Shown here one piece after another: positions 50,760-63,690 of a DNA stretch of 64,000 nt. A model generated the notes under the pieces. That model worked only from the letters and a program-made list of their open reading frames with translations, ran no database searches and was not told where the DNA came from. The stretch is from Eggerthella sp. YY7918. Its GTDB lineage: Bacteria; Actinomycetota; Coriobacteriia; Coriobacteriales; Eggerthellaceae. The stretch covers positions 1,612,001-1,676,000 of the forward strand of contig NC_015738.1 in the NCBI RefSeq assembly GCF_000270285.1, in the 5' to 3' direction. The stretch's first letter is position 1; every line of letters begins with the position of its first letter. The position numbers were made by a program, and so were the translations under genes.

Positions 50760-51188
50760 CTACCTTGGCTTCAGGTAAGCAGAAAACTTCTCAAACGAAT
50801 CCGCTGACAGACAGTGCTCCATACGGCAAGCCTCTTTCGATGCCACTTCGTCATCGACTCCAGCATCGCAGAGCAACCGCCTGAAGAACTCGTGCTTCTC
50901 GAGAGTTGCCTTGGCGATACCAAGCCCCCTCTGAGTGAGCCGCACATCGCGATCGACCACCTCCACAAGCGATTGGGAGGAGAGGCTTGAAAGCGCCTTA
51001 GTAACACTCGGCTTCGTTATGCCCAGGTATTCCGCAATATCCACGTTGCGGCAGGAGCCACGCTCGGCGCGGATGACGAAGATCGCCTCGAGGTAGTCTT
51101 CGGAAGATTCTGTCGTCATTGTTTTCGTATGCGAAATAGAGTCCCGGTCGGCATCGGCGGGATCCAAAGATGAATCTACTGAGATCAT
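50760..51188 (-). CDS. DtxR/MntR-family metal-dependent repressor (copy 2)
   Basis: A 142-residue winged-helix regulator: NVDIAEYLGITKPSVTKALSSLSSQSLVEVVDRDV, then EKHEFFRRLLCDAGVD and ACRMEHCLSADSFEKF. SSEDYL carries an Asp where MntR has its first ligand, while Cys-x-x-Glu-His is DtxR-like; the ancillary Glu after His is replaced by Arg. ATG 51188 overlaps the transporter stop as ATGA. It closes the uptake operon and probably represses it when metal is plentiful. It is clearly related to copy 1 at 18767. Confidence 0.82.
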   Translation of the reverse strand: MISVDSSLDPADADRDSISHTKTMTTESSEDYLEAIFVIRAERGSCRNVDIAEYLGITKPSVTKALSSLSSQSLVEVVDRDVRLTQRGLGIAKATLEKHEFFRRLLCDAGVDDEVASKEACRMEHCLSADSFEKFSAYLKPR

Positions 51189-52948
51189 TGGCGGAAACTC
51201 CATCCTTCTGCTTCGCTCCTTATTTCCACAAACCTACGGTAGATCCCCTCATGTTCCAAAAGCTGTTGATGAGTTCCTCGCTGAGCAATTCTTCCACGAT
51301 CCACTACAAGTATCTGGTCGGCATGCTCTATGGTGGCAAGCCTATGAGCTATTACTACAACGGTTTTGCCGTAGGTCAGTTCAGTGAGCGCAGCTTGGAT
51401 GAGAGATTCATTCTCAGGATCGATGCTTGCCGTCGCTTCGTCCAGAATCACTATAGGTGCGTCTTTTAGCAATGCCCGCGCAATAGAGATTCGCTGCTTC
51501 TGGCCACCTGAAAGCGCAGCGCCCCCTTCGCCCACCATGGTGTTGTATCCATCAGGCAGCATCTCCGCAAATTCGTCGACCCTAGCACGATGCGCTGCAT
51601 TTCGGACTTCCTCTTCTGTTGCACCCGGCTTTCCGAAACGAATGTTGTTCTCGATGGTATCGTTGAAGAGGTAGACGCTTTGAAACACTGCAGAAAAGTT
51701 TCGGAGGAGGCTATCGCATGTCAGCTCCCTCACGTCCCTGCCTCCAACAAGAATTCGCCCTGTATCGACATCCCAGAATCTCATCATCAGGTTGGCAATG
51801 GTGGTCTTGCCCGAACCTGACGGGCCCACTATGGCGCACGTCGATCCCTCAGGAACGCTGAGGTTCACCTGGTCGAGAACTTTCCTCGTCTTCTCGCCCT
51901 GACCGTAGGAAAACGTTACATTTTGAAACTCAATGTCGTATTCCGAAAGCGCTATCTCTTGGCCATTCTCGTCGATTCGCTTCGCGTTTTCGACTTTTTC
52001 GAGCCTATCGAGAATGTCGCCCAGATCACCAAGCATATGCGCGGAATCGTTGACCTTCTCCACTCCGGAAAAGATTGTGAACGAAAATGCCAAAAGGGCG
52101 AAAAACGACCAGAGGGGAAGAGATCCGGTCACAAAGCCCCACACGGCGCATCCAACCACGCCCACGCTAGCGAGCTTGAACGCAATCAGGTGGATGACGT
52201 TTTTCGGCGTGAACCCAAACTCTATTGCAATGCGAGCTTCCTTCAATCCTTTCACCGAGCGCAGGATGGGCTTCTCCGCAGCACCACTCTGTCCATACGA
52301 TTTTGCGGTTCCAAGCCCCCGAACATATTCGATGATGTCTTCAGCAAGCTTTTCGGTTGCTTCATGTGCAACAGGGGTAAGCCGCTTTGACGTGCGGTTA
52401 ATCGAAGCGAGGGCAAAGCACGAGATCGCCGTGCCCAAAATCGCAGCAAGGGCAGCTGGCGGGCTTACGAAAAGCAGGAAGCAGATTATCGCAACTAGGT
52501 TGACGTAGCCATTTATCACCGCATCGACCATTTTCATCCCCTGAAGCTCGAGGACGCCTAGCTCGGTCGTTGCAAGAGTGAGGATATCTCCCGTGTTCAC
52601 CTCCGAAAAGAACCCCATCGGAACCCTCTTGAGGACATTGCCAATTCTTATGCGGTCTTCTGGAGCCACCTCGTAGCCTATAGATTCCTGCAACCTGTTT
52701 TTCCCATAGGAGAAGACAAACCGCAGCAGGACGCAGGCAACTATTGCGAGAAAGGAAAGCCACACCCAAGAAGGATCGAGTCGAGAATCGCCATTTGAAT
52801 CCTCGACCACCCTAGCTAGAAGCCAAGCTCCAATTACAACAGGCGCTGCAGTTGCCCACGTCATAAGAAAGGAGCAAACACATCCGAGAAAAAGGCGCTT
52901 TTTATGAGGTCCGGTCCATCGAATGATACGGATAAGCGAGTCTATCAT
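51185..52948 (-). CDS. ABC transporter, permease-ATPase fusion (YbtQ/IrtB-like)
   Basis: A 587-residue half-transporter: six membrane segments, then an ATPase with Walker A VGPSGSGKTTIANL, signature LSGGQKQRISIARALL, Walker B IVILDEATASID and switch His IAHRLATIEHADQ. The exporter-type fold used for uptake of iron-siderophore in YbtPQ and IrtAB fits this pair, which is associated here with an AraC regulator, an ECF transporter and DtxR. Its start shares one base with the partner's stop (TAATG). Confidence 0.87.
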   Translation of the reverse strand: MIDSLIRIIRWTGPHKKRLFLGCVCSFLMTWATAAPVVIGAWLLARVVEDSNGDSRLDPSWVWLSFLAIVACVLLRFVFSYGKNRLQESIGYEVAPEDRIRIGNVLKRVPMGFFSEVNTGDILTLATTELGVLELQGMKMVDAVINGYVNLVAIICFLLFVSPPAALAAILGTAISCFALASINRTSKRLTPVAHEATEKLAEDIIEYVRGLGTAKSYGQSGAAEKPILRSVKGLKEARIAIEFGFTPKNVIHLIAFKLASVGVVGCAVWGFVTGSLPLWSFFALLAFSFTIFSGVEKVNDSAHMLGDLGDILDRLEKVENAKRIDENGQEIALSEYDIEFQNVTFSYGQGEKTRKVLDQVNLSVPEGSTCAIVGPSGSGKTTIANLMMRFWDVDTGRILVGGRDVRELTCDSLLRNFSAVFQSVYLFNDTIENNIRFGKPGATEEEVRNAAHRARVDEFAEMLPDGYNTMVGEGGAALSGGQKQRISIARALLKDAPIVILDEATASIDPENESLIQAALTELTYGKTVVVIAHRLATIEHADQILVVDRGRIAQRGTHQQLLEHEGIYRRFVEIRSEAEGWSFRQ

Positions 52949-54744
52949 TACTTGCTCCTTTCCTCGCCAGAACCTGCCGACCACATTCGTGCGCCTATAT
53001 GAGCCTCCCACATCCGCGCGTAGAGAGGGCAGGTTGAAATCAGCGTGTCGTGCTTTCCTGTCGCGATTACGTTCCCTCCATCGATTACCGCTATCTGATC
53101 CGCGTTCACAATTGTCGAAAGTCGGTGCGCAATGACCACCAATGTCTTCCCTGATGAAAGATGAGCTATAGACTTTTGAATCTTGTCCTCGCTTTCGGGA
53201 TCGGTAAAGGCGGTGGCCTCATCGAGAACCACTACGGGAGCATCTTTCAAAATTGCGCGCGCGATGGAAACGCGCTGCCTCTCTCCTCCTGAAAGTTCAA
53301 GCCCCGCCGATCCCGCTGGGGTATCCAGCCCTTGCGGCAGACGCGACACGAAATCATCGCAGCACGCCGCCCGAGCCGCCGCCTCCACCTCTTCGTCACT
53401 TGCCGAAGGGTTCCCAAGCCTGATATTGTCCCGAATGCTTGCGTCGAAAAGATAGTTGTCCTGGGCAACAAAGCTCACCAGCTCAGAAAGCTGCTCGAGC
53501 GGCATATCGCGCACGTCGACGCCTCCGATAGCGATGCTTCCATCGTCGACATCCCAATGCCGCACAAGAAGACGTGCTAGGGTCGACTTGCCAGACCCAG
53601 ACGGGCCAACGAGCGCAGTGAAAGACCCGCATGGTATGTTCAGAGATATTCCATGCAGTACCTCTTCGTCTTCCTTATAAGAGAAATGGACGTCTTTCAG
53701 TTCGATGGACGAACCCTGGACTCCAGTTGCGTTTCGAGTCACCTCGGGAAGTTCTGGCAGGCCAAGAAACTCCTCGGCATCGGCTACAGCGTATTCCATG
53801 GACTTTATTTCGTTAACGAACGAGGTGAACCTAGCAATCGGATCAACGATGGCAAGCGCCAGCACCACGCACATCGCCAGGTCAATCGGAGACAGAGCCC
53901 CATTAAGGTAGAGAGCCAAGCCAACGGGCATCACACCAAGAAGCGTTGTCGGCATGATGCTTGACATGAGGTTCATGGTTAGCCAAGTAGACTTGAACCA
54001 CTCCATTGTGAAATCCTTGAAGGCTTTGACCGCATTTGAGTATTTCTCATAGGAGTCGCTTGCCTGATTGAAGGCCTTCACCACCTGGATGCCTTCTACG
54101 TATTCCACGATGACGCTGTTCACATGGTTGCTCTCAGCCATAAATGCAGCGTACTTTGCATTAAACTCCTTGAGGCTCGATGCAAACACTATCAAGCCCA
54201 AAGGGACGCAAACAAGGCATGTGAGAGCCATGCGCCAGTCAATTAGCACAAGCCAAACCGCCAAACCTGCCGCAAGAACGAGCGAACCGCCCAGTTCGGG
54301 AATCATATGGGCTAAAGGCGGCTCGATATTTTCGATTCGATCGAGGAACACGCTCTTTATATTCCCAATGCTCTTCGTCTGAACCGTTCCCAAAGAGGCG
54401 TGCATAAGCTTATGCACCACGTCCTTTCGAAGCGATTCAAGAATCGTGTAAGCCGAAACATGAGACAAAAGGGTGGATACCCCAAACAGAATCTTGCTCA
54501 GAATATAAGCAACTGCCGCCAGGGCGATCCAAATCAAAGCGCCATCCCAAGTCAGCGATTTGGCGATGGCCATCCCCATGATGCGGTACACCGCGTAAAA
54601 AGGGACAAAGCCTGCAGCCACGCTGGCGATAGACGCTAAGAGCGAAAAGAGCATTTTGCCCTTGCAGCGGAATGCGTAAGAGAAAAGCGTGCCAACCCAC
54701 GACCTTCCCTCAACATTTTCCGAAAGAGCCTCGTTTGTCGACAT
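52948..54744 (-). CDS. ABC transporter, permease-ATPase fusion (YbtP/IrtA-like)
   Basis: A 598-residue half-transporter: a membrane domain (MLFSLLASIASVAAGFVPFYAVYRI and five more segments) and an ATPase with VGPSGSGKSTLARLL, LSGGERQRVSIARAIL, VVVLDEATAFTDPES and VIAHRLSTIVNADQ. It should form a heterodimer with the next gene's product. The promoter region upstream (54745-54882) carries a copy of a 24-bp motif shared with the ECF operon promoter. Confidence 0.87.
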   Translation of the reverse strand: MSTNEALSENVEGRSWVGTLFSYAFRCKGKMLFSLLASIASVAAGFVPFYAVYRIMGMAIAKSLTWDGALIWIALAAVAYILSKILFGVSTLLSHVSAYTILESLRKDVVHKLMHASLGTVQTKSIGNIKSVFLDRIENIEPPLAHMIPELGGSLVLAAGLAVWLVLIDWRMALTCLVCVPLGLIVFASSLKEFNAKYAAFMAESNHVNSVIVEYVEGIQVVKAFNQASDSYEKYSNAVKAFKDFTMEWFKSTWLTMNLMSSIMPTTLLGVMPVGLALYLNGALSPIDLAMCVVLALAIVDPIARFTSFVNEIKSMEYAVADAEEFLGLPELPEVTRNATGVQGSSIELKDVHFSYKEDEEVLHGISLNIPCGSFTALVGPSGSGKSTLARLLVRHWDVDDGSIAIGGVDVRDMPLEQLSELVSFVAQDNYLFDASIRDNIRLGNPSASDEEVEAAARAACCDDFVSRLPQGLDTPAGSAGLELSGGERQRVSIARAILKDAPVVVLDEATAFTDPESEDKIQKSIAHLSSGKTLVVIAHRLSTIVNADQIAVIDGGNVIATGKHDTLISTCPLYARMWEAHIGARMWSAGSGEERSK

Positions 54745-54851
54745 GGCATCACTTCCTTCAACGGAATATCGGCGAATCGCATAAGCTCTTCGCCGGAATT
54801 GTTAACCTTGGCTTATTATTTGATGCGACGGGCGTTGCATCAGCTCCGTTC

Positions 54852-54875
54852 GGACGGAAGTGTTCCGATTGGACA
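54852..54875 (-). promoter_or_regulatory. Candidate AraC-regulator site before the ABC pair
   Basis: A 24-bp block whose reverse strand starts TGTCCAATCGGAACA; 20 of 24 positions match the block at 58794-58817. It ends 108 bp upstream of the ABC start, 8 bp after the araC stop. Confidence 0.6.
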
Positions 54876-54882
54876 GAATGTA

Positions 54883-55887
54883 TTATTGACGCCGCCGGTA
54901 CTCGCTGGGCGTAACGCCGCTAAACCCTTTGAATGCGACAGAGAACTTGGAAGGGCTTTCATATCCAACTTGTGCGCCGATTTCGGAAACGTTGGCATCG
55001 GTCTCTCTTAGCATCTTTGCCGCAAGCTCCATCCGGACAGTGCGCACATAAGCTGCCGGAGAAGAGCCGTAGACGCCTCTGAAGCATTGTTTGAACGCCG
55101 TAAGAGACATGCCAGCGCCTTTTGCTGCTTGCTCGACCGTAATGCTCTCAGAAAGGTTCGAAACCATCAGATCGTGCGCTTCTTTGACGCGGGCGACCTT
55201 CGAACGCGGGTAGTATTCCGTTCCCTCGACTAGCAAATCGGGCTCTAAGGAGTCTAGGAAAAGAAGCAATTCGAGAGACTTGATTTGGCAATACGCCTTT
55301 CGCACCTTCACGGGAGCGAGATAGAGCTCGGCGGCAATATGGCTAGCTTGATTGTTGGCGTGCAGGAAAAAGGGCCTTCCTTCTTTGCAAAATCGCCGCT
55401 TCACTTCAAAAAGGTCAACCGCAAAACCGGGAAGCGCCTTTCTTATCGAATCAGGCGCAAATGAAAGATCAAACGAAATGGTAACCCCTCGGTACCGACG
55501 CGTGGGAAAAACAAATTCCCCTGTGTGGCTTGCCCTATCGTCGACTTTGAGATCACCAGAAGACACGTATGCGTACGAGCCTCCGGGCACGGGTTGCTCG
55601 ATCCTGCCCTCCCGGCACCAGTCAATGCACAAAACGTCGCTCTCGGTAGAGAAAGAGGAAATGCAGCGTCCCATGTGAAAATCGTTAAACGAAACGGTGA
55701 TCCCCGGAAGAACCTCAGTGAAACGCATCTCTCCGAAACCGTCGTCGCTTTCAACGCGCATCACGGTCTCGCCCGACGCTGAAGCCAGATGCACTTCTCC
55801 GCCAAAAACTGAAGGAGCCGTATCAAGAGAAAAAGGGAAAGCGGTGCTAGTCCCATCCGTAAAGATACTTTTTGCACGATAACTCAT
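54883..55887 (-). CDS. AraC-family regulator (YbtA-type)
   Basis: A 334-residue regulator. The N-terminal 220 residues are a sensor domain without a clear cupin motif (GRIEQPVPGGSYAYVSSGDLKV). The C-terminus is a full AraC DNA-binding domain (ESITVEQAAKGAGMSLTAFKQCF, AKMLRETDANVSEIGAQVGYESPSKFSVAFKGFSGVTPSEYR). Its start overlaps the ECF ATPase stop as TAATG, so it is made from the ECF transcript. AraC regulators of this type sense the imported metallophore and activate its uptake genes. Confidence 0.87.
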   Translation of the reverse strand: MSYRAKSIFTDGTSTAFPFSLDTAPSVFGGEVHLASASGETVMRVESDDGFGEMRFTEVLPGITVSFNDFHMGRCISSFSTESDVLCIDWCREGRIEQPVPGGSYAYVSSGDLKVDDRASHTGEFVFPTRRYRGVTISFDLSFAPDSIRKALPGFAVDLFEVKRRFCKEGRPFFLHANNQASHIAAELYLAPVKVRKAYCQIKSLELLLFLDSLEPDLLVEGTEYYPRSKVARVKEAHDLMVSNLSESITVEQAAKGAGMSLTAFKQCFRGVYGSSPAAYVRTVRMELAAKMLRETDANVSEIGAQVGYESPSKFSVAFKGFSGVTPSEYRRRQ

Positions 55888-57353
55888 TAAAATGACTCCT
55901 TGGATGCTGCGTTGAGCTCGATGACGCTATCGCAGCACCGATTGAGAAACTCTCGATCGTGGGTAACCAATATGATTGCCGTTCCCGTTTCTGAGATACC
56001 GCGTACGAGGCTTACAACTTCGAGCATATGATCAAAGTCGAGCCCACTCGTTGGCTCATCGAGGAGCAGCACCTTCCTGCCAGAAAGTAGAGCGCATGCA
56101 AGGGAAAGACGCTGCTTCTGGCCTCCAGATAGCGCCATGGGATGCACCTGCGCCTTATCGGAGAGGTCCAGCTTGGAAAGCGTTGCTTCGATTTGCGCAT
56201 GCGTCGACTCGTTATCTTGTCCGCCAACCGCCAAGAGGCACTCGTTCCAAACACTGTCCGAAAACAATTGATGATTAACATCCTGCATTACAAGAGATAC
56301 CGCCCGTTTCCTCTCTTTCCTTGTTTGGCGATTTCCGTCAAACATCACATCGCCCATTTCATGACGCTCCAAACCTGCTAGTCCGCGTAAGAGCGTCGTT
56401 TTCCCTGTGCCGTTCTCGCCTAAAACGCCAAGCACCTTTCCCCATGGCACGAAAACGCTCACAGGCTCAAAGACGCTATTGCCTCTTCGAAGGACTGAAT
56501 ACGAAGAGAGCTCTACTCCCTTCGATGCACCATCGGATTGGCATCCATTACCAGGACGGCAGCTTGGAATTGTTACGGATAGGGCTTCTCTCGGATCCGT
56601 CGCGCGGAGGCCTAAAATTTCACGCTCCTCCGAATCAATTGCCAATAGTTCTTTTGGAGAAAATTCCCGAGAAATCCGCCCGTTTTCTATCAGAACTGCT
56701 CTATCTATCAGATCGGCAGCAAAATAGAGCCTATGCTCAGCTATGACAACCGTCTTTCCCTGAGCCTTCACAGCCGCTATCTCGTCATGCAAGACCTCAA
56801 TAGAAGACGTATCAAGATTTGCTGTTGGCTCATCAAGAACAAAGACATCTGGTTCGGAGCAGTCGACAGAAGCGAACACGAGGCTTTGTTTCTCTCCGCC
56901 GCTCATCGTATTCACATTGCGATTGAGCAGTCGTTGCGCTTTGAGTGCAACTACTGTCCTAGCGATTCGTCTTTCGATCTCATCAATCGCGACGCCGCGT
57001 GATTCAAGGCCAAAGGCAAGCTCATCATTCGAAGTCAAGTTGAAAAACTGGCTTTTCGGATTCTGAAACACGCTTCCAACAAGTTCGGCAAGCTCATACA
57101 TCTCACAACTAGACGGATCAAGACCACAAACCCGGACATCCCCCTCAAGAACCAGGTTTGGCTCAAACGAAGGAATCAAGCCGTTTATACACTTAGTGAT
57201 GGTTGTTTTCCCCGAGCCTGAGCGCCCTATCAAAAGCAGGCATTCTCCCCGTTTCACTTGAAGGTTGATATTATCTAAAATCGATGTGCCATCGCTTAAA
57301 GCGCAACTCACGCCTGAAAGAGAAATCACCGAATCGTCACTTTGGGATTCCAT
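55887..57353 (-). CDS. ECF transporter ATPase, two ATPase domains fused (EcfA-A')
   Basis: A 488-residue protein with two complete ABC ATPases: first IGRSGSGKTTITK, MSGGEKQSLVFASV, VFVLDEPTANLD; second LGENGTGKTTLLRGL, LSGGQKQRLSLACALL, VLLLDEPTSGLD. This energises the adjacent EcfT and S component. Start at 57353 shares bases with the EcfT stop (TAATG) and has GGGAGG upstream. Confidence 0.9.
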   Translation of the reverse strand: MESQSDDSVISLSGVSCALSDGTSILDNINLQVKRGECLLLIGRSGSGKTTITKCINGLIPSFEPNLVLEGDVRVCGLDPSSCEMYELAELVGSVFQNPKSQFFNLTSNDELAFGLESRGVAIDEIERRIARTVVALKAQRLLNRNVNTMSGGEKQSLVFASVDCSEPDVFVLDEPTANLDTSSIEVLHDEIAAVKAQGKTVVIAEHRLYFAADLIDRAVLIENGRISREFSPKELLAIDSEEREILGLRATDPREALSVTIPSCRPGNGCQSDGASKGVELSSYSVLRRGNSVFEPVSVFVPWGKVLGVLGENGTGKTTLLRGLAGLERHEMGDVMFDGNRQTRKERKRAVSLVMQDVNHQLFSDSVWNECLLAVGGQDNESTHAQIEATLSKLDLSDKAQVHPMALSGGQKQRLSLACALLSGRKVLLLDEPTSGLDFDHMLEVVSLVRGISETGTAIILVTHDREFLNRCCDSVIELNAASKESF

Positions 57354-58099
57354 TAGAACTCGCCTCCCAACAACGCGACCAAAATAACCACGGCAGCGGA
57401 AATCGCTATAACCGCCCAATCAAACCAGCGCATCGAAAGACGCTCGGTATCCGTAGAAGGCGACGGATTTTCTATTCCTCGGCATGTCGCCGCCCTAGCC
57501 AGTTCATCAGCGGTCGAAGTCGCCGACATAACCAGCGGGACAACAAAGCACTCAACCCTGCTGCCGACAGGGATGTCGCGCAAAGCCATAGCGTCACGAA
57601 TATGCGACGCCTCTTCTTTAAGAGTAGGAAAATAGCGCAACGTCACCGTTAAAGGAATAAGAACGGACTGAGGGATTTTGAGTTTTGCTAACGCAGTTGC
57701 GATTCTGTGAACAGATGCCTCGGAGATCAGGAGAGTCCCAACCATTAAGCACAAATAGATTTTCCTAGCAAATGTGAGGCTAATCGTGAACATCGTAGCG
57801 GCAATTCCCCCAATAGCGGGAAGAGCAAGATGCAGTATTGCCACCAAAACGGCATAGCCCGCCATAAAGCCGAAAGCCATTCTTATATGGCCACAAAGGG
57901 CCTGAAGGATTGCTACAGCGCAAACAAGCACAAGTTCGACGACAAGTCCCTTTTCGATAAAGGCGAGCACAGACACCGCAACAAGAACCGCCATAAAGGT
58001 TCGCGGGTCTAAGTCGAGGGCGCCTTGAGAATGAGGCTTTCCCAAAATGGATCCGCCCGAAAGAAGCTCTTTCTCATTGGCAAGCATCTCCTGCCCCAT
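57353..58099 (-). CDS. ECF transporter transmembrane coupling protein EcfT
   Basis: A 248-residue protein with four to six membrane segments and the EcfT coupling motifs, here of the form LMVGTLLISEASVHRIATALAKLKIP and ATSTADELARAATCRGIENP (Ala-Arg-x-x-Arg-Gly type helix). It overlaps both neighbours by one base, so stoichiometry is probably coupled. Confidence 0.87.
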   Translation of the reverse strand: MGQEMLANEKELLSGGSILGKPHSQGALDLDPRTFMAVLVAVSVLAFIEKGLVVELVLVCAVAILQALCGHIRMAFGFMAGYAVLVAILHLALPAIGGIAATMFTISLTFARKIYLCLMVGTLLISEASVHRIATALAKLKIPQSVLIPLTVTLRYFPTLKEEASHIRDAMALRDIPVGSRVECFVVPLVMSATSTADELARAATCRGIENPSPSTDTERLSMRWFDWAVIAISAAVVILVALLGGEF

Positions 58100-58716
58100 T
58101 ACACAAGCCCCGCTTTTTCGAAATGCTTCTTAAACATTCCCCTCGCGACGTAAGCGCCAACGAGACCAGCAATAAACGTAACAACGAACATTGCGATAAG
58201 CATGGTTGGATTAGCCGCCGTTTCAAGCGTCGCAAGATAAGAGGCCCCCATTCCCTGTGAAGCGATCTGGGCGACGAAAGAATCATGGAATACCCAAAGC
58301 GGCAAAGGACTGCCGCACATACCGAACCCGAACACAGCGTAAGCAACGGCATTACCAGCAAAACTGCGGTACTTAGTAACCGCGCGAATCACCTCGGCAA
58401 TCAAGCATGCGCCAAGCATCATGCCGAGAATGAGCGGTGTGAACATTCCGGTAATGAAATAGATTAATGAAGGAACCATTCCCATGATGAGCACAGTTCC
58501 GAACTTGGGAACCTTTGCACATGCCAACATAAACGGGATACCAGCAAGCAAGCCATCAAGAGCAGGCATAAACACCCATAGATACGGATGAAGACCAGAC
58601 AGGAGCATACACACGAAATTCACCGCAAAATACAGTGCGGTAAAAATGCCCACCGTTATTAAATCTCGTCCTTTAAGGACGCGTGAGTTTGTCCTGGAAG
58701 AATCAGCGTTGCTCAT
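58099..58716 (-). CDS. ECF transporter S component, MptD-like family
   Basis: A 205-residue membrane protein with about six segments (DLITVGIFTALYFAVNFVCMLLSG at the start, GVYVARGMFKKHFEKAGLV-like tail). It matches the MptD-type putative S components found with fused EcfA and EcfT. Ligand is unknown; the iron-type regulators and YbtPQ-like pair in the same operon point to a metal chelate or haem. AAGGAG precedes the ATG. It is the first gene of the operon. Confidence 0.8.
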   Translation of the reverse strand: MSNADSSRTNSRVLKGRDLITVGIFTALYFAVNFVCMLLSGLHPYLWVFMPALDGLLAGIPFMLACAKVPKFGTVLIMGMVPSLIYFITGMFTPLILGMMLGACLIAEVIRAVTKYRSFAGNAVAYAVFGFGMCGSPLPLWVFHDSFVAQIASQGMGASYLATLETAANPTMLIAMFVVTFIAGLVGAYVARGMFKKHFEKAGLV

Positions 58717-58817: not shown

Positions 58818-59384
58818 TGAGATTGGTTCTTCATTTAAGAACCGATACCTCAAACATCCATGCAATCAACAACGAACATGGCCATCTCACGAAAGAGCAG
58901 GATAGTATCGCGGCGTAGCCTCAACAAACCAGCAATTAGTATCGCATCGCCGTTTTTATGAATGATCTATATGGTTAGCAGTTGTGAACAATTGTCAGGA
59001 TCCTCATTCCATAAGATAATGCAATTGGTCTTTCGAAGCAGAAGGGCTTCCAGGAGCCGGGGGTTGTCCCTCAGCATTCTTTAGAAGAAATGCCTACGCC
59101 TAAAATGAGCTTACGAATAGGCACATTAACGGCCTCAAAGGAAGTCACCCAAAGAATAGGAATGCCGATTTTGACCAAAACGCCGAACTGCAAACCGCCC
59201 GATGCTATTCCCATTCACAAAATCGGGGATAGTCGCAAGGGAGTCGTCGCAGGAATCGGCATTTGAATCAGGAATGCGATGATTTGTAATCACCCATCTG
59301 ATTACAAAGTGATTCGGACTTGAAGAAAACAACCGGACGAGGTGACACGATATGACACACGGCAGCACGCATAGGACAATTGCT
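58818..59384. other. Right-end region of the element without recognised genes
   Basis: It holds a promoter plus structured RNA (58992-59085), a 58-codon plus-strand frame from 59090 (MPTPKMSLRIG...) that I cannot support as a gene, and the 10-bp inverted repeat AATGCCGATT (59161-59170) / AATCGGCATT (59254-59263), a candidate integrase arm site. A small hairpin GTAATC/GATTAC follows near 59286. Confidence 0.4.
58992..59085 (+). ncRNA. Candidate structured RNA A (orphan copy near right end)
   Basis: Promoter TTGTCA (58992-58997), 17-bp spacer, GATAAT (59015-59020). The following RNA has stem CTTTC (59030-59034)/GAAGG (59041-59045), the shared block AGGGCTTCCA (59043-59052) and a 3' hairpin GCCGGGGG (59056-59063)/CCCTCAGC (59068-59075) then ATTCTTT. 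It matches RNA B at 62336-62397 in order, sequence block and structure. No associated protein gene follows. Confidence 0.55.
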
Positions 59385-59400
59385 ACGATTGAGTGGGAAT
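59385..59400 (+). other. attR core: displaced guaA 3' end
   Basis: ACGATTGAGTGGGAAT, differing from attL (18248-18263) in one base at a silent codon position. Read in frame it gives ATIEWE followed by TGA, a remnant of the original guaA end. Confidence 0.8.
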
Positions 59401-59521
59401 GACGCTCAAAACGGCGCAAACCCGCATGAATACAGGCCTTTTTGCCCGTCCATATTGCTCTTGATACTGGATTGATACTATTTGTGTCCGCCCGGTACTC
59501 TCAAGAGAATAATCCCAAAAG

Positions 59522-59578
59522 GACAAGCAAAACCGCCCTGCTGAACGACAAATTCAGCAGGGCGGTTTTTTGCTTGTC
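59522..59578. terminator. Strong bidirectional terminator right of attR
   Basis: AAAACCGCCCTGCTGAA (59529-59545) pairs exactly with TTCAGCAGGGCGGTTTT (59553-59569); outer bases GACAAGCA and TGCTTGTC extend the pairing. It may be the original guaA terminator of the host. Confidence 0.85.
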
Positions 59579-59670
59579 TTATTTGTTTTTCCGCCAGGGG
59601 ATATGGAAGAGAGCCAGGTGGAGAACAGCTTTTTACTCAAGATTATTTTGCCTGATAGTCGATGCGGCAA

Positions 59671-60033
59671 CTAGAATTCCCGAAAGAAAATGTCCGCGTC
59701 GAACAATATGCTTTTGATATCTGCGAAGGCAGCATTGATTGCCTCAGCTGAAGCTTCGTTGGTTTTTACTTCAATTGTCATAAACGAAGCCCTGCCATCA
59801 ATCGCATCATTCGTAATGATAATCGCTTCTCCTGGTTCCCCCGTGAACTCCGATTTAGCGCCAGGACCCATGACCGTTGTCTTCGTGTTGCTGACGACAA
59901 CACCCGCATCGTTAAGACGCTTCAGCGCCAAAGATTTGATTTGATGATCCCTCTCGTAGTTGAAAGGACTAGAGAAAAGCATCTTGTAAGTGTATGTGGG
60001 CGATTTCTTCTTGCCAAATCCAAATAATCCCAT
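59671..60033 (-). CDS. Unknown 120-residue protein
   Basis: A small soluble protein: MGLFGFGKKKSPTYTYKMLF, LALKRLNDAGVVVSNTKTTVMGP, GEAIIITNDAIDGRASFMTIEVKTNEAS. The pattern of beta strands and helices is regular, but I recognise no family. GAGGTAA precedes the ATG. Confidence 0.55.
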   Translation of the reverse strand: MGLFGFGKKKSPTYTYKMLFSSPFNYERDHQIKSLALKRLNDAGVVVSNTKTTVMGPGAKSEFTGEPGEAIIITNDAIDGRASFMTIEVKTNEASAEAINAAFADIKSILFDADIFFREF

Positions 60034-60066
60034 GTTGTTACCTCATTTCGGGCGCGTGCTGGTTCT

Positions 60067-60228
60067 CTACGCAAGGCACCATTTGCTGAACTCGCTCATT
60101 GCGTCATTCAGTGAGGAATAAGGACCGTATTTGGATCTGCCGTCCATGACATAGACCCAGAACGTAACTCCATTGCCCTCAATCCAACAATGTCCGTGAC
60201 TGCCGTGTCCATCCTTGTAGATAGCCAT
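60067..60228 (-). CDS. Small unknown protein, 53 residues
   Basis: MAIYKDGHGSHGHCWIEGNG then VTFWVYVMDGRSKYGPYSSL and ending EFSKWCLA. ATG 60228 has GAGGAG 7-12 bases upstream; the frame up to 60387 lacks support. It is compact with many Gly/Tyr/Trp, so likely a small beta protein. Function unknown. Confidence 0.5.
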   Translation of the reverse strand: MAIYKDGHGSHGHCWIEGNGVTFWVYVMDGRSKYGPYSSLNDAMSEFSKWCLA

Positions 60229-60405
60229 GGAACAACTCCTCTTCTCTTGGCGAAAAATGCAGTTACATTTTAAGCTACAGCAAAAGGAGTGCAAACGCTC
60301 ACCAGGTGTTTCAATCTCGTTCAGCTCTTCGTGCAAGGTCGCGCACTTTTTCTTCAATTGTACGTGCGCACGCTTCGAACGCCTCATCTCAACCTTCGGC
60401 CTTCT

Positions 60406-61350
60406 CTACACTTCAAGTGGCACAAACTGGAAGGTGGTGCAATCCACCAAACCGCGATCCATGCGAAAACACGTTGCCACATTAATGGTCACCATCTGTA
60501 TTGCCCGCACGGCCGGAATACCACACGCAACAGCAACACGCAAAATGCGATCCAAATGCCCCTCTTCCACAATGGTGTACGGATGCAAGTCGTCAGAAAC
60601 TAAGTTTGCAAAGCGAGAATCCACCTTGTTTTCTGTGAGGGCTTTAGCAAGCACGGGCAAATCAAGCCATGCAGAACCATGACGCAACTGCGCGTACATA
60701 CCCAAGCGCATCTTGGCCAAGGCATCCTCTGCGCGAGTTGATTCATGACAACAGCGCACGCCAGAACCTGCATACGCATTGAGCCCTCTATCTGTTTCAG
60801 GGACCGAATAATGGCCTGTAATAACTTTGTCTGCCTTGAGGGTTTCGGCAAGTTCTCCGTGTGCATGGTCAGAACCATTTACCACACCAACGAAATTCAT
60901 CATTTCGCCAAGTCCAACGACGCTATCCCACGTCATGCTTTCGCGAATTTCGTCTGGCCCAATGACGGATCCCGTATCTTCAAATCCTGGCACGGCTGGC
61001 ACACAAGACGGCGTGGTAACCATAGCTTTATGCGGCGTGTTTTTGGCATCTTCCAACATCGCCTGCACACCCTCAAGCCCAAGCACGTTGGCAATCTCAT
61101 GAGGATCCCAATAAATGCCCACCGTGCCGTGAGGGATAACAGCACGGGCGTATTCGCCAACACCAACCATGGAGGATTCCACGTGAATATGGCCGTCCAA
61201 AAAACCAGGCGCGATATACGCACCTGCTGCATCTATAACTGTTGTGTCCTCGCTAACACAATGAGCAGCGTTGCCCACATAGACAATACGACCCTCCACA
61301 ATGGCAACATCCATGCTGTCCTGGACCTCAGCAGTACATACATTGACCAT
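60406..61350 (-). pseudogene. Truncated adenine deaminase
   Basis: The conserved core of adenine deaminase is present: APGFLDGHIHVESSM (metal-binding His pair), GIYWDPHEIANVLGLEG, VVGLGEMMNFVGVV, and DDLHPYTIVEEGHLD. Homology starts abruptly at MVNVC, missing about 25 N-terminal residues, and ends at RMDRG where the family continues for roughly 250 more residues. About 315 of 570-600 residues remain in an open frame. An active enzyme is unlikely. Confidence 0.75.
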
Positions 61351-61361
61351 CCTCGACCTGC

Positions 61362-61535
61362 TCCGTGGCGGAGAAGACCTCACTCAGCCTCATCGCCAAC
61401 GTTTTCGGTGACGCCAGAAAAACCTATCGCGAGGTTGAAGAACGCGCCTTCGCCGACAAGGTGGACGAGCTCGGCGGACGTTACGGGCTGCAGAAAAACT
61501 GCTCTTTGTACGAAAGGCTAGGAGGATCGAAGTGA
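61362..61535 (+). pseudogene. C-terminal remnant of an AbiEi-like antitoxin gene
   Basis: The frame reads EKTSLSLIANVFGDARKTYREVEERAFADKVDELGGRYGLQ...ERLGGSK and stops at 61535, overlapping a GTG start as GTGA, the usual AbiEi/AbiEii junction. Its front part was lost at the junction with the adenine deaminase remnant. The identity rests mainly on the gene that follows. Confidence 0.45.
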
Positions 61536-61976
61536 CAAACGGCATCTACAAGACTCCCGCCGAGTTCGATCGGGCGATCAAGCAAGCCGCCAGTAAAGCA
61601 GAGGGTGATACCGGGGAGCGTTACCGGCAAGCACTGCGCGATCATGGAAACTCATCCCGGAGGATGGAGATCGTCCAGGATGAAAGACCTCACAGACGTC
61701 GTCGCGTACGCGCTTACCCAGTCACCATCGTCCGACGGATTAAGCGCGGCGATCGCAAACGAGTGCGTCCGCCGCTCGATGGAAATACCGAAAAAATTCA
61801 AAGCCCCTAATGAATGGAAAGTTGGGTACCAGTCTTTCGCTCTGAAAGCAAAAACGCTAGAAGAGTACCGGCCGTTTGACCAATCGTGCAGCTTAGCCTC
61901 GAAGTTGTTTGACCCCATATTGAAGGGACAGGCAGGCAACAAGAAGTGGAATCCCGATACCCTGGCATGGAAGTGA
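61532..61976 (+). pseudogene. AbiEii-type nucleotidyltransferase toxin, internally deleted and frameshifted
   Basis: The start TNGIYKTPAEFDRAIKQAASKAEGDTGERYRQAL is a typical AbiEii N-terminus. It breaks near 61640 and continues in another frame with METHPGGWRSSRMKDLTDVVAYALTQ to the C-terminal VGYQSFALKAKTLEEYRPFDQ. The catalytic middle with the GS(D/K)xD motif is missing, so the toxin is dead. Confidence 0.6.
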
Positions 61977-61977
61977 A

Positions 61978-62258
61978 CCCGCAATCCGCCCATTCTCAAC
62001 GACGCGCATCAGGTCGGAAAGACATGATTTCCCAAAGAATTCGGCAGGGTGCAGCTCGAGAACGTCGCATACGTGAACCTCGACGACAACCCCCCCAGGA
62101 TGCAAGAACAGTTCGAGCCGGGCTACAACATCCCGCACATCGTTTCGGCCACTCAGTTCGAAACGGGGGGATCGTACCCGAAGGAGGCGCCCTCATCGTC
62201 CTCGACGAGATTCAGGCATGCGGAGGACATCGATGGGAGGATGGCCGCAATCGGATAG
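61978..62258 (+). pseudogene. AAA ATPase (DUF4143-type) fragment
   Basis: Across shifting frames it reads HQVGKT (Walker A end), EFGRVQLENVAYVNLDDNPP, QFEPGYNIPHIVSATQFETGG and EGGALIVLDEIQACGG (Walker B). This is the N-terminal AAA part of the common archaeal-type/DUF4143 ATPases; the rest is lost. Confidence 0.6.
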
Positions 62259-62305
62259 GGGCGCCGCCCCCATCAACTTCGCGTCGTCGCAGACTCATAT
62301 CCCCG

Positions 62306-62397
62306 TTGCCAAAAACAGCATTCGATGGTATAAATTAGCTGGTTCTCCGATAGGAGGGCTTCCAAGTGCCGGGGGCGTTTTCCCCGGCTTTCTTTGT
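62306..62397 (+). ncRNA. Promoter and candidate structured RNA B before the DUF3800 gene
   Basis: TTGCCA (62306-62311), 17-bp spacer and TATAAA (62329-62334) form a promoter. The RNA folds a 5' stem TCTCC (62344-62348)/GGAGG (62353-62357), carries AGGGCTTCCA (62355-62364), and a 3' hairpin GCCGGGG (62368-62374)/CCCCGGC (62382-62388) followed by TTTCTTT, terminator-like. It resembles the conserved RNA structures described upstream of DUF3800 and Abi-type genes; I cannot say which class. Confidence 0.6.
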
Positions 62398-62415
62398 ATT
62401 AGGGGGGGGGGCGAA

Positions 62416-63087
62416 TTGCGCGAGCTCAGCCTGTTCATAGACGAGTCCGGGAGCGACAACCTGAAGGACAGGTACTACCTCCTCACGCTCGTGCTCCACG
62501 AGCAGGACGAGGACATATCTGACAGCATCCGCTTGTACGAGCGGTCTCTCGCCGAGAAGGGGCTGCCCGACATCCCGTTTCATGCTTCCCCACTCCTGAA
62601 CGGCCATGACGGCTACGAGAACATGGAGCCCGCCGACAGGAAGCGGCTCCTCTCGTCGTTTCGGGTGTTCTTCCGCCACATGCCGGTGCGCTACACGTGC
62701 ATCACGCTCAAGACGAAGGAGCACGGCGACCTTGACGGGATGACCGCCGCGATGCGGAAGCGCCTCGTCGACTTCCTGTTCGACAAGCTGACATACTTCC
62801 AAGACTTTGACGTCGTGAAGATCTACTACGACGACGGCCAGAAGTCGGTTGCAAGGGCGATCCACAAGGCTGTCGACTACGCCCTCGCAAAGGACGCGGT
62901 GACATACAGGCTCGCGTCTTCCGCCGACTACAGGCTCAGCCAGATTGCGGACTACATCTGCACGATGGAACTGACCGCCCTCAAGTACGCCGACAAGGCG
63001 TCCACCGCTACCGATGAGAAGTTCTTCGGCTCGTGGTCCCAGTTCAGGAAGGGCATCCTCAAGGAAGTGCGAGCGAAGAGGGTTTAA
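62416..63087 (+). CDS. DUF3800 domain-containing protein
   Basis: A 223-residue protein: RELSLFIDESGSDNLKDRYYLLTLVL (Asp-Glu motif at the start), FHASPLL, KIYYDDGQKSVARAIHKAV and RLSQIADYICTMELTALK near the end, the DUF3800 pattern (RNase H-like fold proposed). The start is a TTG at 62416 directly after a 10-G tract; no ATG fits. It is preceded by a structured RNA. Proposed roles of the family are in RNA-linked defence or toxin-antitoxin-like systems; unproven here. Apparently intact. Confidence 0.75.
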   Translation: MRELSLFIDESGSDNLKDRYYLLTLVLHEQDEDISDSIRLYERSLAEKGLPDIPFHASPLLNGHDGYENMEPADRKRLLSSFRVFFRHMPVRYTCITLKTKEHGDLDGMTAAMRKRLVDFLFDKLTYFQDFDVVKIYYDDGQKSVARAIHKAVDYALAKDAVTYRLASSADYRLSQIADYICTMELTALKYADKASTATDEKFFGSWSQFRKGILKEVRAKRV

Positions 63088-63109
63088 CTGCGCGATAATT
63101 GGGAGGTCT

Positions 63110-63342
63110 TGGGGCACTGTCCGCAAATCCCATGCGGCAATTGCCCGGGAAACACACGGCGCGCCCGCCCTCGTCGAACGCCTTGAGCCGTTCCTCCCGA
63201 TACCAGCGGATGTACGCCGAGAGCTCCTCGATGAAGCGCTCCGCCGTCCAGCCGGACCAGTCTCGGCCGTAGAAGAACTCGACCTTGAGCCTGCCGAAGA
63301 AGCCCTCGCAGGCGGCGTTTGTCTTTGATAGCTTTACCACTC
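63110..63342 (-). pseudogene. IS3-family transposase C-terminal fragment with inverted-repeat end
   Basis: Frame reading NAACEGFFGRLKVEFFYGRDWSGWTAERFIEELSAYIRWYREERLKAF is the end of the rve domain of IS3-family OrfB (catalytic Glu in CEGFFG). Only about 85 residues remain. The sequence GGGGCACTGTCCGCAAATCC at 63111-63130 is likely the right inverted repeat of the insertion sequence. The left part is gone, replaced by flavoprotein sequence. Confidence 0.7.
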
Positions 63343-63690
63343 TGGGTAAACAGCAAGGGCAAACGGTATGTCAATGAAGAAGTGGCTCTCGCCCTCATGA
63401 ACATGGGCACAGTCTACTGCCAGCTTAGGGACGGCATTAGCTGGACCGTCTTCGACGAAGATTTCCTCGAAAATCTCGAGACCAGGGGATCAGCACTCGC
63501 GATGGGCGAGTTCCTCCAGATCAACAAACCAGTCCTCAACGCTCGACCGGAAATCGATGAGAACTTCGCCCAGGGAGACCCCACGGTTGCGAAGGCGTGC
63601 ACCATCGACGTACCTGGCGGCACCAACGGCTTTGCCCACACTTCTGGGCGCATCGCCGGACGCAAGGCAATAGAAATCATCCAGGAATAA
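63331..63690 (+). pseudogene. Fumarate reductase-like flavoprotein fragment
   Basis: The frame gives LWVNSKGKRYVNEE (conserved in FAD-dependent fumarate/urocanate reductase-type proteins), DPTVAKACTIDVPGG and the C-terminal TSGRIAGRKAIEIIQE. Intact proteins have about 500 residues with an FAD-binding N-terminus; here that is missing and the middle is shortened. It is a relic truncated at the IS junction. Confidence 0.65.

Follow-up and report, generated by a model that had tools for sequence, protein, structure and literature searches.

A short structured RNA gene ahead of a DUF3800 gene in Eggerthella sp. YY7918 and its possible role as a nuclease-inhibiting RNA

Layout and structural conservation of the RNA

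We analyzed a 64,000-nucleotide (nt) stretch of the Eggerthella sp. YY7918 genome (NC_015738.1, positions 1,612,001 to 1,676,000 of the forward strand; hereafter "the window"), which carries two related short RNAs, RNA A and RNA B, the latter directly ahead of a gene for a DUF3800 protein (Table 1). RNA B comprises a hairpin P1, a linker, and a second hairpin P2: P1 folds into 8 base pairs (bp; 62341-62348 with 62353-62360), and P2 (GCCGGGG/CCCCGGC) is followed by TTTCTTT. Computation supports a short RNA gene of ~55 nt with its own predicted promoter and terminator that is inherited together with the DUF3800 gene behind it as a single unit; a first-pass annotation of the sequence had already noted RNA B in front of this gene. 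That annotation had also described promoters with 17-nt spacers before both RNAs, and both can be read directly from the DNA; of the 92 relatives in which a -10 was detected by an automatic rule, 77 have the TG of the extended element. The run of ten G at 62402-62411 compares with 5 to 6 G in the nearest relatives, and could be slippage-prone, altering expression, or a sequencing effect.

Table 1. Positions of the two RNAs, the DUF3800 gene, and the features around RNA B within the window.
Feature	Position	Strand	Description	Basis
Promoter-like sequence of RNA A	58992-59020	+	TTGTCA 58992-58997, 17-nt spacer, GATAAT 59015-59020	Direct reading
RNA A	59021-59075	+	Intact P1 59027-59048, linker UCCAGGA 59049-59055, damaged P2 59056-59075	R1 match, fold
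RNA B promoter	62306-62334	+	TTGCCA 62306-62311, 17-nt spacer, extended -10 TGG-TATAAA (TATAAA 62329-62334)	Direct reading
RNA B	62335-62388	+	5' leader nucleotides, P1 62341-62360, linker UCCAAGU 62361-62367, P2 62368-62388	Covariance models R1/R2, pair counts
P2 and T-run TTTCTTT	62368-62395	+	Predicted intrinsic terminator between RNA B and gene	Fold; pairing in relatives
Run of 10 G	62402-62411	+	Ribosome-binding region of DUF3800	Direct reading and relatives
DUF3800 gene	62416-63087	+	TTG start at 62416, 223 aa, predicted RNase H-fold nuclease	Pfam PF12686, alignment A4, AlphaFold2
Amidohydrolase-like open reading frame	60406-61383
ATPase-like piece	about 62000-62250			By eye
Integrase core fragment	63059-63340
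Open reading frame without Pfam match	63319-63690

RNA A and RNA B share the exact block AGGGCTTCCA, as first reported, followed by NNN-GCCGGGG, and the U-A to C-G double change described between their P1 stems is present. The GCCGGGG-type 3' hairpin attributed to both is intact in RNA B, whereas P2 of RNA A holds one C.A mismatch and one G.U pair and its T-run is weak (ATTCTTT). In the 3,123,671-base genome, the 20-nt pattern AGGGCTTCCANNNGCCGGGG has two exact matches, none at one or two mismatches, and 14 at three; the three-mismatch genome matches (L003-L016; L and G numbers are our handles for loci and genome sites), like a viral match to the pattern (L031), were taken as chance. We built a covariance model R1 from 21 relatives, which included RNA B (as L032) and excluded RNA A, and a broader model R2, whose alignment contained both. 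Searching the whole genome with R1 at E up to 0.01 returned solely RNA B (76.5 bits, E 6.9e-15) and RNA A (30.9 bits, E 4.4e-4; the same score gave E 7.7e-5 in another search), and R2 returned the same two matches, with RNA B at 66.4 bits and E 1.1e-11.

The claim of a conserved structured RNA had been staked beforehand on a wider alignment and a covariance model, and both bear it out. In an alignment of 87 distinct RNAs (A6), 95.6% of the cells of a continuous structure were paired, versus 87.4% in shuffled alignments; 12 of the 15 pairs were changed on both sides, versus 4.9 in shuffles; and double-change cells numbered 87, versus 23.2 ± 8.7. None of 500 shuffles reached the observed value of any of these three measures, and slid versions of the structure gave 45-64% pairing. 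The model to which A6 was fitted had a bulged P1 base, so these counts lean toward structure in general and not toward a continuous P1 base. A P1 with a 3-nt bulge (as in A2, R1, and R2) reached 94.9% pairing; it was rejected because it loses on compensations, which the continuous helix shows at columns 7-56 and 8-55 (L092, L021, L105, L114), and on mean pairing probability (0.70 continuous versus 0.09 bulged, higher for the continuous form in 76 of 87). R1 and R2 retain the bulge, while the structure described here is the continuous helix.

The three parts of the RNA vary in different ways. P1 changes in sequence and keeps its pairing through many double changes; P2 cells are 99.7% paired among the 87 distinct relatives, with a sequence that hardly varies; and the linker is unpaired yet conserved (C59 in 86 of 86 letters, A62 in 83 of 87, G63 in 84 of 87). 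Folding of the window copies was moderate for RNA B (z -1.43 for the whole stretch, -2.42 for the trimmed RNA) and weak for RNA A (0.38 and -0.86), so that the case for structure draws its strength from the wider alignment and not from folding alone. On these comparisons, the RNA is clearly conserved as a structure consisting of the P1 hairpin, a single-stranded linker UYCAAGN, and the terminator hairpin P2.

Catalogued families, hosts, and copies without a gene

Comparison with Rfam, including its DUF3800 and AbiF families as had been suggested, recovered no family at gathering score: cmscan with all 4227 families of Rfam 15, a set that holds the other DUF3800 RNAs as well as abiF RNA (RF03085), gave no match in the window. 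With E relaxed to 10, RNA A and RNA B matched just chance-level families (E 1.8-8.3), with DUF3800-XI (RF02975) absent; among 20 related loci, Rfam found three tRNAs and nothing else, RF02975 (gathering score 37.8 bits) scoring in 0 of 20. RF02975 did exceed its gathering score in 11 loci of a set of 20 that took in the most divergent homologues, and again in 7 of 16 loci drawn from viral contigs and Lachnospiraceae. On a tree of 101 proteins, whose RNA 3' labels (XI and others) were assigned by sequence patterns and not by Rfam score, with 21 of 101 rows left as "other," 17 XI-labeled rows and one other row formed one side of a 100/100 branch, and the RNA 3' types required 23 changes, versus 61.3 with shuffled labels. 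Because there was no Rfam match and the XI RNAs sit on the sister branch of the protein tree, we place the window RNA, at the level of sequence, as an unlisted sister of DUF3800-XI.

The two families are alike in lying directly 5' of DUF3800 genes of the same wider subfamily (RNA B ends 27 nt upstream of the TTG start; RNA A has no such location) and in consisting of a hairpin, a short linker, and a G+C-rich hairpin with a T-run; R1 and R2 weakly match a few XI members (E 0.0015-0.05). They differ in P1, an uninterrupted 8-bp stem here but a 10-bp stem broken by a 2-nt bulge in the folds of three XI examples, in the linker UCCAAGN and P2 GCCGGGG of the window RNA versus GGCGGGG in XI, and in their proteins, which fall on opposite sides of the 100/100 branch. 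Judging from passages of PMC8040213, the window RNA may be among the thousands of candidates reported there.

The unit recurs widely. Class-level samples gave protein matches in 121 of 396 genomes and RNA matches (R2, E up to 0.001) in 111 of 396. Of 107 distinct regions upstream of DUF3800 homologues, 92 held both a -10 and a P2-like hairpin according to an automatic rule (which chose a second hairpin in L066), and in 10 of the remaining 15, where the rule had overlooked or misread it, the RNA was found by eye (L064, L081, L086, L098, L101, L116, L119, L120, L123, L129). In L075 and L092 the RNAs sit further upstream, L087 carries an insertion within P2, and the RNA is missing in L044 (upstream DNA replaced, common to L042) and L072 (near a contig edge). 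Three other candidates (L019, L029, L030) appear by eye to be other sequence. The tandem RNA pairs that precede one DUF3800 gene in L075 (2649-2874) and L092 (2693-2916) have a second copy without an evident own -10. The same inserted end sequence breaks P2 at about the same point in L087 (an insertion sequence) and L025; in L087, GGGGCTGTCCCC stands on both sides of the insertion, and this insertion element may target the P2 hairpin.

Carriers in Coriobacteriia include Collinsella, Slackia, Adlercreutzia, Olsenella, and Thermophilibacter, and outside the class the RNA lies 5' of DUF3800 in Bifidobacterium, Varibaculum, and Actinomycetaceae. A Collinsella aerofaciens unit (L174; G304) is 94% identical to the window unit although its host belongs to a different family, which implies transfer between families. 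The protein search also matched one plasmid record (Collinsella), one phage record, and 15 viral contigs, the viral contigs read having mostly XI-type RNA. A phylum-wide scan with R1 matched 22 of 396 genomes; its eight matches outside the class (E 8e-4 to 7e-3), one of which (L302) is an alignment row, may be chance products. The idea that the RNA is a transposon end, raised by deleted copies such as L150, was dropped: in a comparison by eye of the flanks of near-identical units, the shared stretches end variably and no target duplication was seen.

RNA A had been presented with RNA B as two copies of one RNA, a misleading description, since by its sequence RNA A is of a different subtype, without a protein, and decaying. 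Its P1 can form 8 bp (59027-59034 with 59041-59048), and RNA A alone among the 87 distinct relatives has the C.A pair of P2 broken. The 3' half of RNA A (UCCAGGAGCCGGGGGUUGUCC) recurs unchanged in Varibaculum cambriense (L192) and with two base differences in Bifidobacterium panos (L206), in both of which DUF3800 is next after the RNA. Across 392 Coriobacteriia genomes, TCCAGGAGCCGGNGGTTGTCC occurs without mismatch at four sites, i.e., RNA A, a site 5' of a DUF3800 gene split into two frames (G236), an orphan (G307), and a site where just an N-terminal DUF3800 piece was recognized (G397). A DNA search of 137 same-family genomes gave, among the matches listed, a single one over the RNA A part, L150, which aligns at 78% identity and lies 5' of an internally deleted DUF3800. 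The view of RNA A as an orphan held: A six-frame profile search of the window found no DUF3800 piece or remnant beyond the gene behind RNA B, save a noise match at E 7.9. Because its subtype is shared with DUF3800-linked RNAs elsewhere and no DUF3800 trace lies nearby, RNA A is best read, from these alignments, as a decaying relic of a separate, different DUF3800 unit whose gene is lost. A Trep_Strep membrane-protein gene is divergent from RNA A, and the region 50760-58716 also holds an iron-dependent repressor, ABC exporters, and an AraC regulator.

Among the matches listed (150 RNA, 150 protein), 86 RNAs lie within 350 nt before a listed DUF3800 gene and 64 do not. We read 40 of these 64 sites: A profile search found DUF3800 pieces in 13 loci, including L370 with pieces upstream of the RNA, and a short piece was seen by eye in L348. 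Twenty-six of the 40 had no DUF3800 piece, two of which (L359, L372) stop at a contig edge. In 25 orphan loci (23 of the 26, with L022 and L028; 27 matches, one on the reverse strand), 90.9% of cells pair, and some downstream or gene-less copies bear their own -10. Extra RNAs occur shortly 3' of DUF3800 in L071 (3780), L109 (3663), and L113 (9153 and 9261); the downstream RNA of L109 is of another subtype than its upstream copy.

The DUF3800 protein and its neighborhood

The protein behind RNA B belongs to DUF3800 (Pfam PF12686, E 4.8e-8, 34.3 bits against a gathering score of 21). Across 76 homologues (alignment A4), D9, G12, H28, H56, Y138, D139, Q142, and Q176 are invariant and E10, S11, R75, D179, and E185 nearly so. 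An RNase H fold runs beta1-2-3, alphaA, beta4, alphaB, beta5, alphaC, with acidic residues on beta1, after beta4, and on alphaC. The AlphaFold2 model (predicted local distance difference test 95.9, predicted template modeling score 0.92) has this strand and helix order, to which helices are added between beta2 and beta3, and D9, D139, and D179/E185 stand at the expected places. We thus predict, from the model, a nuclease of RNase H fold whose acidic residues are conserved. A Foldseek search against viral models returned one DUF3800 protein (E 3e-7) followed by weak matches that include RuvC, RNase H, and resolvase. The PADLOC profile DUF3800_VII, a label that we take to stand for retron type VII, matched one of the 76 homologues (E 6.9e-5), and the window protein had no PADLOC match. 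An RNase H fold of DUF3800 has already been reported in passages of PMC10910872 and PMC12669027.

To describe the surroundings of these units, we took the 71 longest open reading frames (ORFs; up to 1100 aa, near-duplicates included) of 380 in 80 named loci, with 71 ORFs from 20 fixed 20-kb regions of 13 genomes as controls. The neighbors comprised six Eco57I/PglX-type proteins, three ResIII, two BrxL, two PglZ, one Schlafen-type helicase, and one TOTE primase, and none of those families appeared in the controls among the 25 families listed of 69 (Pfam) and 43 (PADLOC). On this small comparison, an enrichment of restriction and bacteriophage exclusion (BREX) genes beside DUF3800 units is indicative at most. 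A Collinsella plasmid carries the DUF3800 gene behind pglZ and brxL, from which two hypothetical genes separate it. In L062 (Collinsella aerofaciens plasmid NZ_OY725717.1), the DUF3800 unit lies near BREX genes and its gene is annotated as two hypothetical proteins; a genome copy that matches the L062 DUF3800 (G231) has one in-frame TGA. In the window, the ORFs scanned beside the RNA B unit gave no PADLOC profile match, and RNA B stands in an apparent scrapyard (60406-63690; Table 1). The region 23810-44801 encodes ParA, ParB, a relaxase, and a type IV secretion system coupling protein, besides a weak match to a TraG-like ATPase, and is by its gene content a conjugative element.

Candidate roles of the RNA

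The data suggest that the RNA probably works together with the DUF3800 protein, perhaps restraining it within a defense or toxin-antitoxin module, the kind of action that the first-pass annotation had hypothesized. By analogy, we favor, with a probability of about 0.5, an inhibitory RNA, i.e., a type III-like antitoxin for the DUF3800 nuclease. Most transcripts would then end at P2 and accumulate as a small RNA, with rare read-through transcripts yielding the protein; the nuclease would bind the RNA through its linker and hairpins and be kept inactive, in the manner of AbiF or type III toxin-antitoxin modules, and transcription shut-down or loss of the unit would release it. We favor this because of the recurring architecture, the covariation, the RNA types that track the protein tree, the trans-acting clues, the RNase H model, and the defense neighbors.

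The closest working model is AbiF (Abi_2), because there an RNA gene before the toxin gene is ended by a terminator and neutralizes a nuclease, according to passages of PMC12373285 and PMC12737573; the former describe a Clostridioides difficile abiF RNA that works both in cis and in trans, binding the protein and neutralizing it. Both abiF RNA (RF03085) and the window RNA thus form a small RNA gene directly before the nuclease gene with a terminator between, but AbiF has a HEPN fold (passages of PMC12737573) and DUF3800 a predicted RNase H fold, and the RNAs differ, with no Rfam match here. ToxIN, CptIN, and TenpIN likewise share the order promoter, RNA, terminator, and protein gene (read here from sequence and folds), while they combine tandem-repeat RNAs with ToxN-related toxins (passages of PMC12373285), as opposed to the single motif here, which accompanies a protein of predicted RNase H fold.

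Several observations weigh against an inhibitory RNA. The motif is usually single, unlike classical type III repeats, with tandem pairs just in L075 and L092 among the loci read. G017 and G018, which have the same upstream DNA, carry an uninterrupted DUF3800 gene without the upstream RNA, although the usual promoter is gone too. Of 138 full-length genes listed, 78 have a listed R2 match and 60 do not; these 60 include the DUF3800-XI branch and variants that R2 misses, many with XI-type or divergent RNAs by eye. For the protein, Foldseek against the PDB found nothing at E 0.001, its weak list being led by a mitoribosomal protein and holding sugar kinases and actins besides integrases, TREX, and RuvC, and sequence searches found no solved structure of DUF3800 relatives (best E 1.4 and 0.19). 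Control ORFs, too, matched PADLOC profiles (43 families). Last, downstream and orphan copies suit a trans-acting RNA, but chance retention of a small target would look alike: Gene-less RNAs could persist merely as a 60-bp target struck less often than a 670-bp gene. The orphans were also found by a structure-requiring model, which biases them toward good pairing.

As an alternative, DUF3800 might bind its own 5' leader and control termination at P2 or translation, leaving the RNA without a role in trans. Such a leader would fit the position of the RNA, which in the 92 of 107 homologues flagged by the automatic rule sits immediately between promoter and gene, with the terminator on its gene side. 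The G-rich ribosome-binding region could be structured, too: When leaders were cut at the start codon, 49 of 74 showed a Shine-Dalgarno pairing probability above 0.5. A pure leader would nevertheless not account for RNA copies that lie 3' of the gene or have none, unless they are relics, and an attenuator or antiterminator fold was considered and rejected, as all 74 leaders gave P2 a probability of 0.5 or more and showed no fold that competes with it. We regard a purely cis-acting leader as rather unlikely.

Another possibility, which we judge improbable, is an activating cofactor or recognition RNA that would form with DUF3800 a ribonucleoprotein nuclease against invading nucleic acid. RNase H-fold proteins include RNA-guided nucleases. 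The window RNA has no guide-like stretch, however; its variable positions lie mainly in the covarying stem, and the single-stranded linker is conserved. Pointing toward it, DUF3800 is reported as an accessory of some V-A2 and VI-F CRISPR loci, in passages of PMC12669027 and PMC10910872, which share with our system the domain name and a reported RNase H fold. Unlike those accessories, the window protein is a bare 223-aa DUF3800 domain, and the window ORFs scanned contained no CRISPR genes, although no search aimed at CRISPR genes was made. That the RNA has no function, with a conserved promoter and terminator merely setting low DUF3800 expression and P1 incidental, is very improbable, as a plain terminator, for which P2 with its T-run is good and hardly varies, needs neither P1 covariation nor a conserved unpaired linker.

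By extension of the inhibitory reading, and as a doubtful conjecture from analogy, DUF3800 units might constitute a second, independent class of RNA-inhibited nuclease modules (an RNase H-fold enzyme with a 55-nt RNA) and the source of the V-A2/VI-F DUF3800 accessories, as Cas13 reportedly derives from AbiF; orphans such as RNA A could then persist by protecting against incoming or residual DUF3800 units. DUF3800-linked RNAs are already catalogued in Rfam, and the family described here, with its covariation support, is unlisted there; passages mentioning DUF3800 in the one paper collection searched held no functional test of a DUF3800/RNA pair. Because the RNA of this family is very small and sharply bounded and its carriers include gut bacteria that can be cultured (Collinsella, Adlercreutzia, Bifidobacterium), whether it inhibits, guides, or regulates the nuclease can be tested directly. 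If the RNA inhibits, an RNase H-fold toxin would be added to the type III-like systems.

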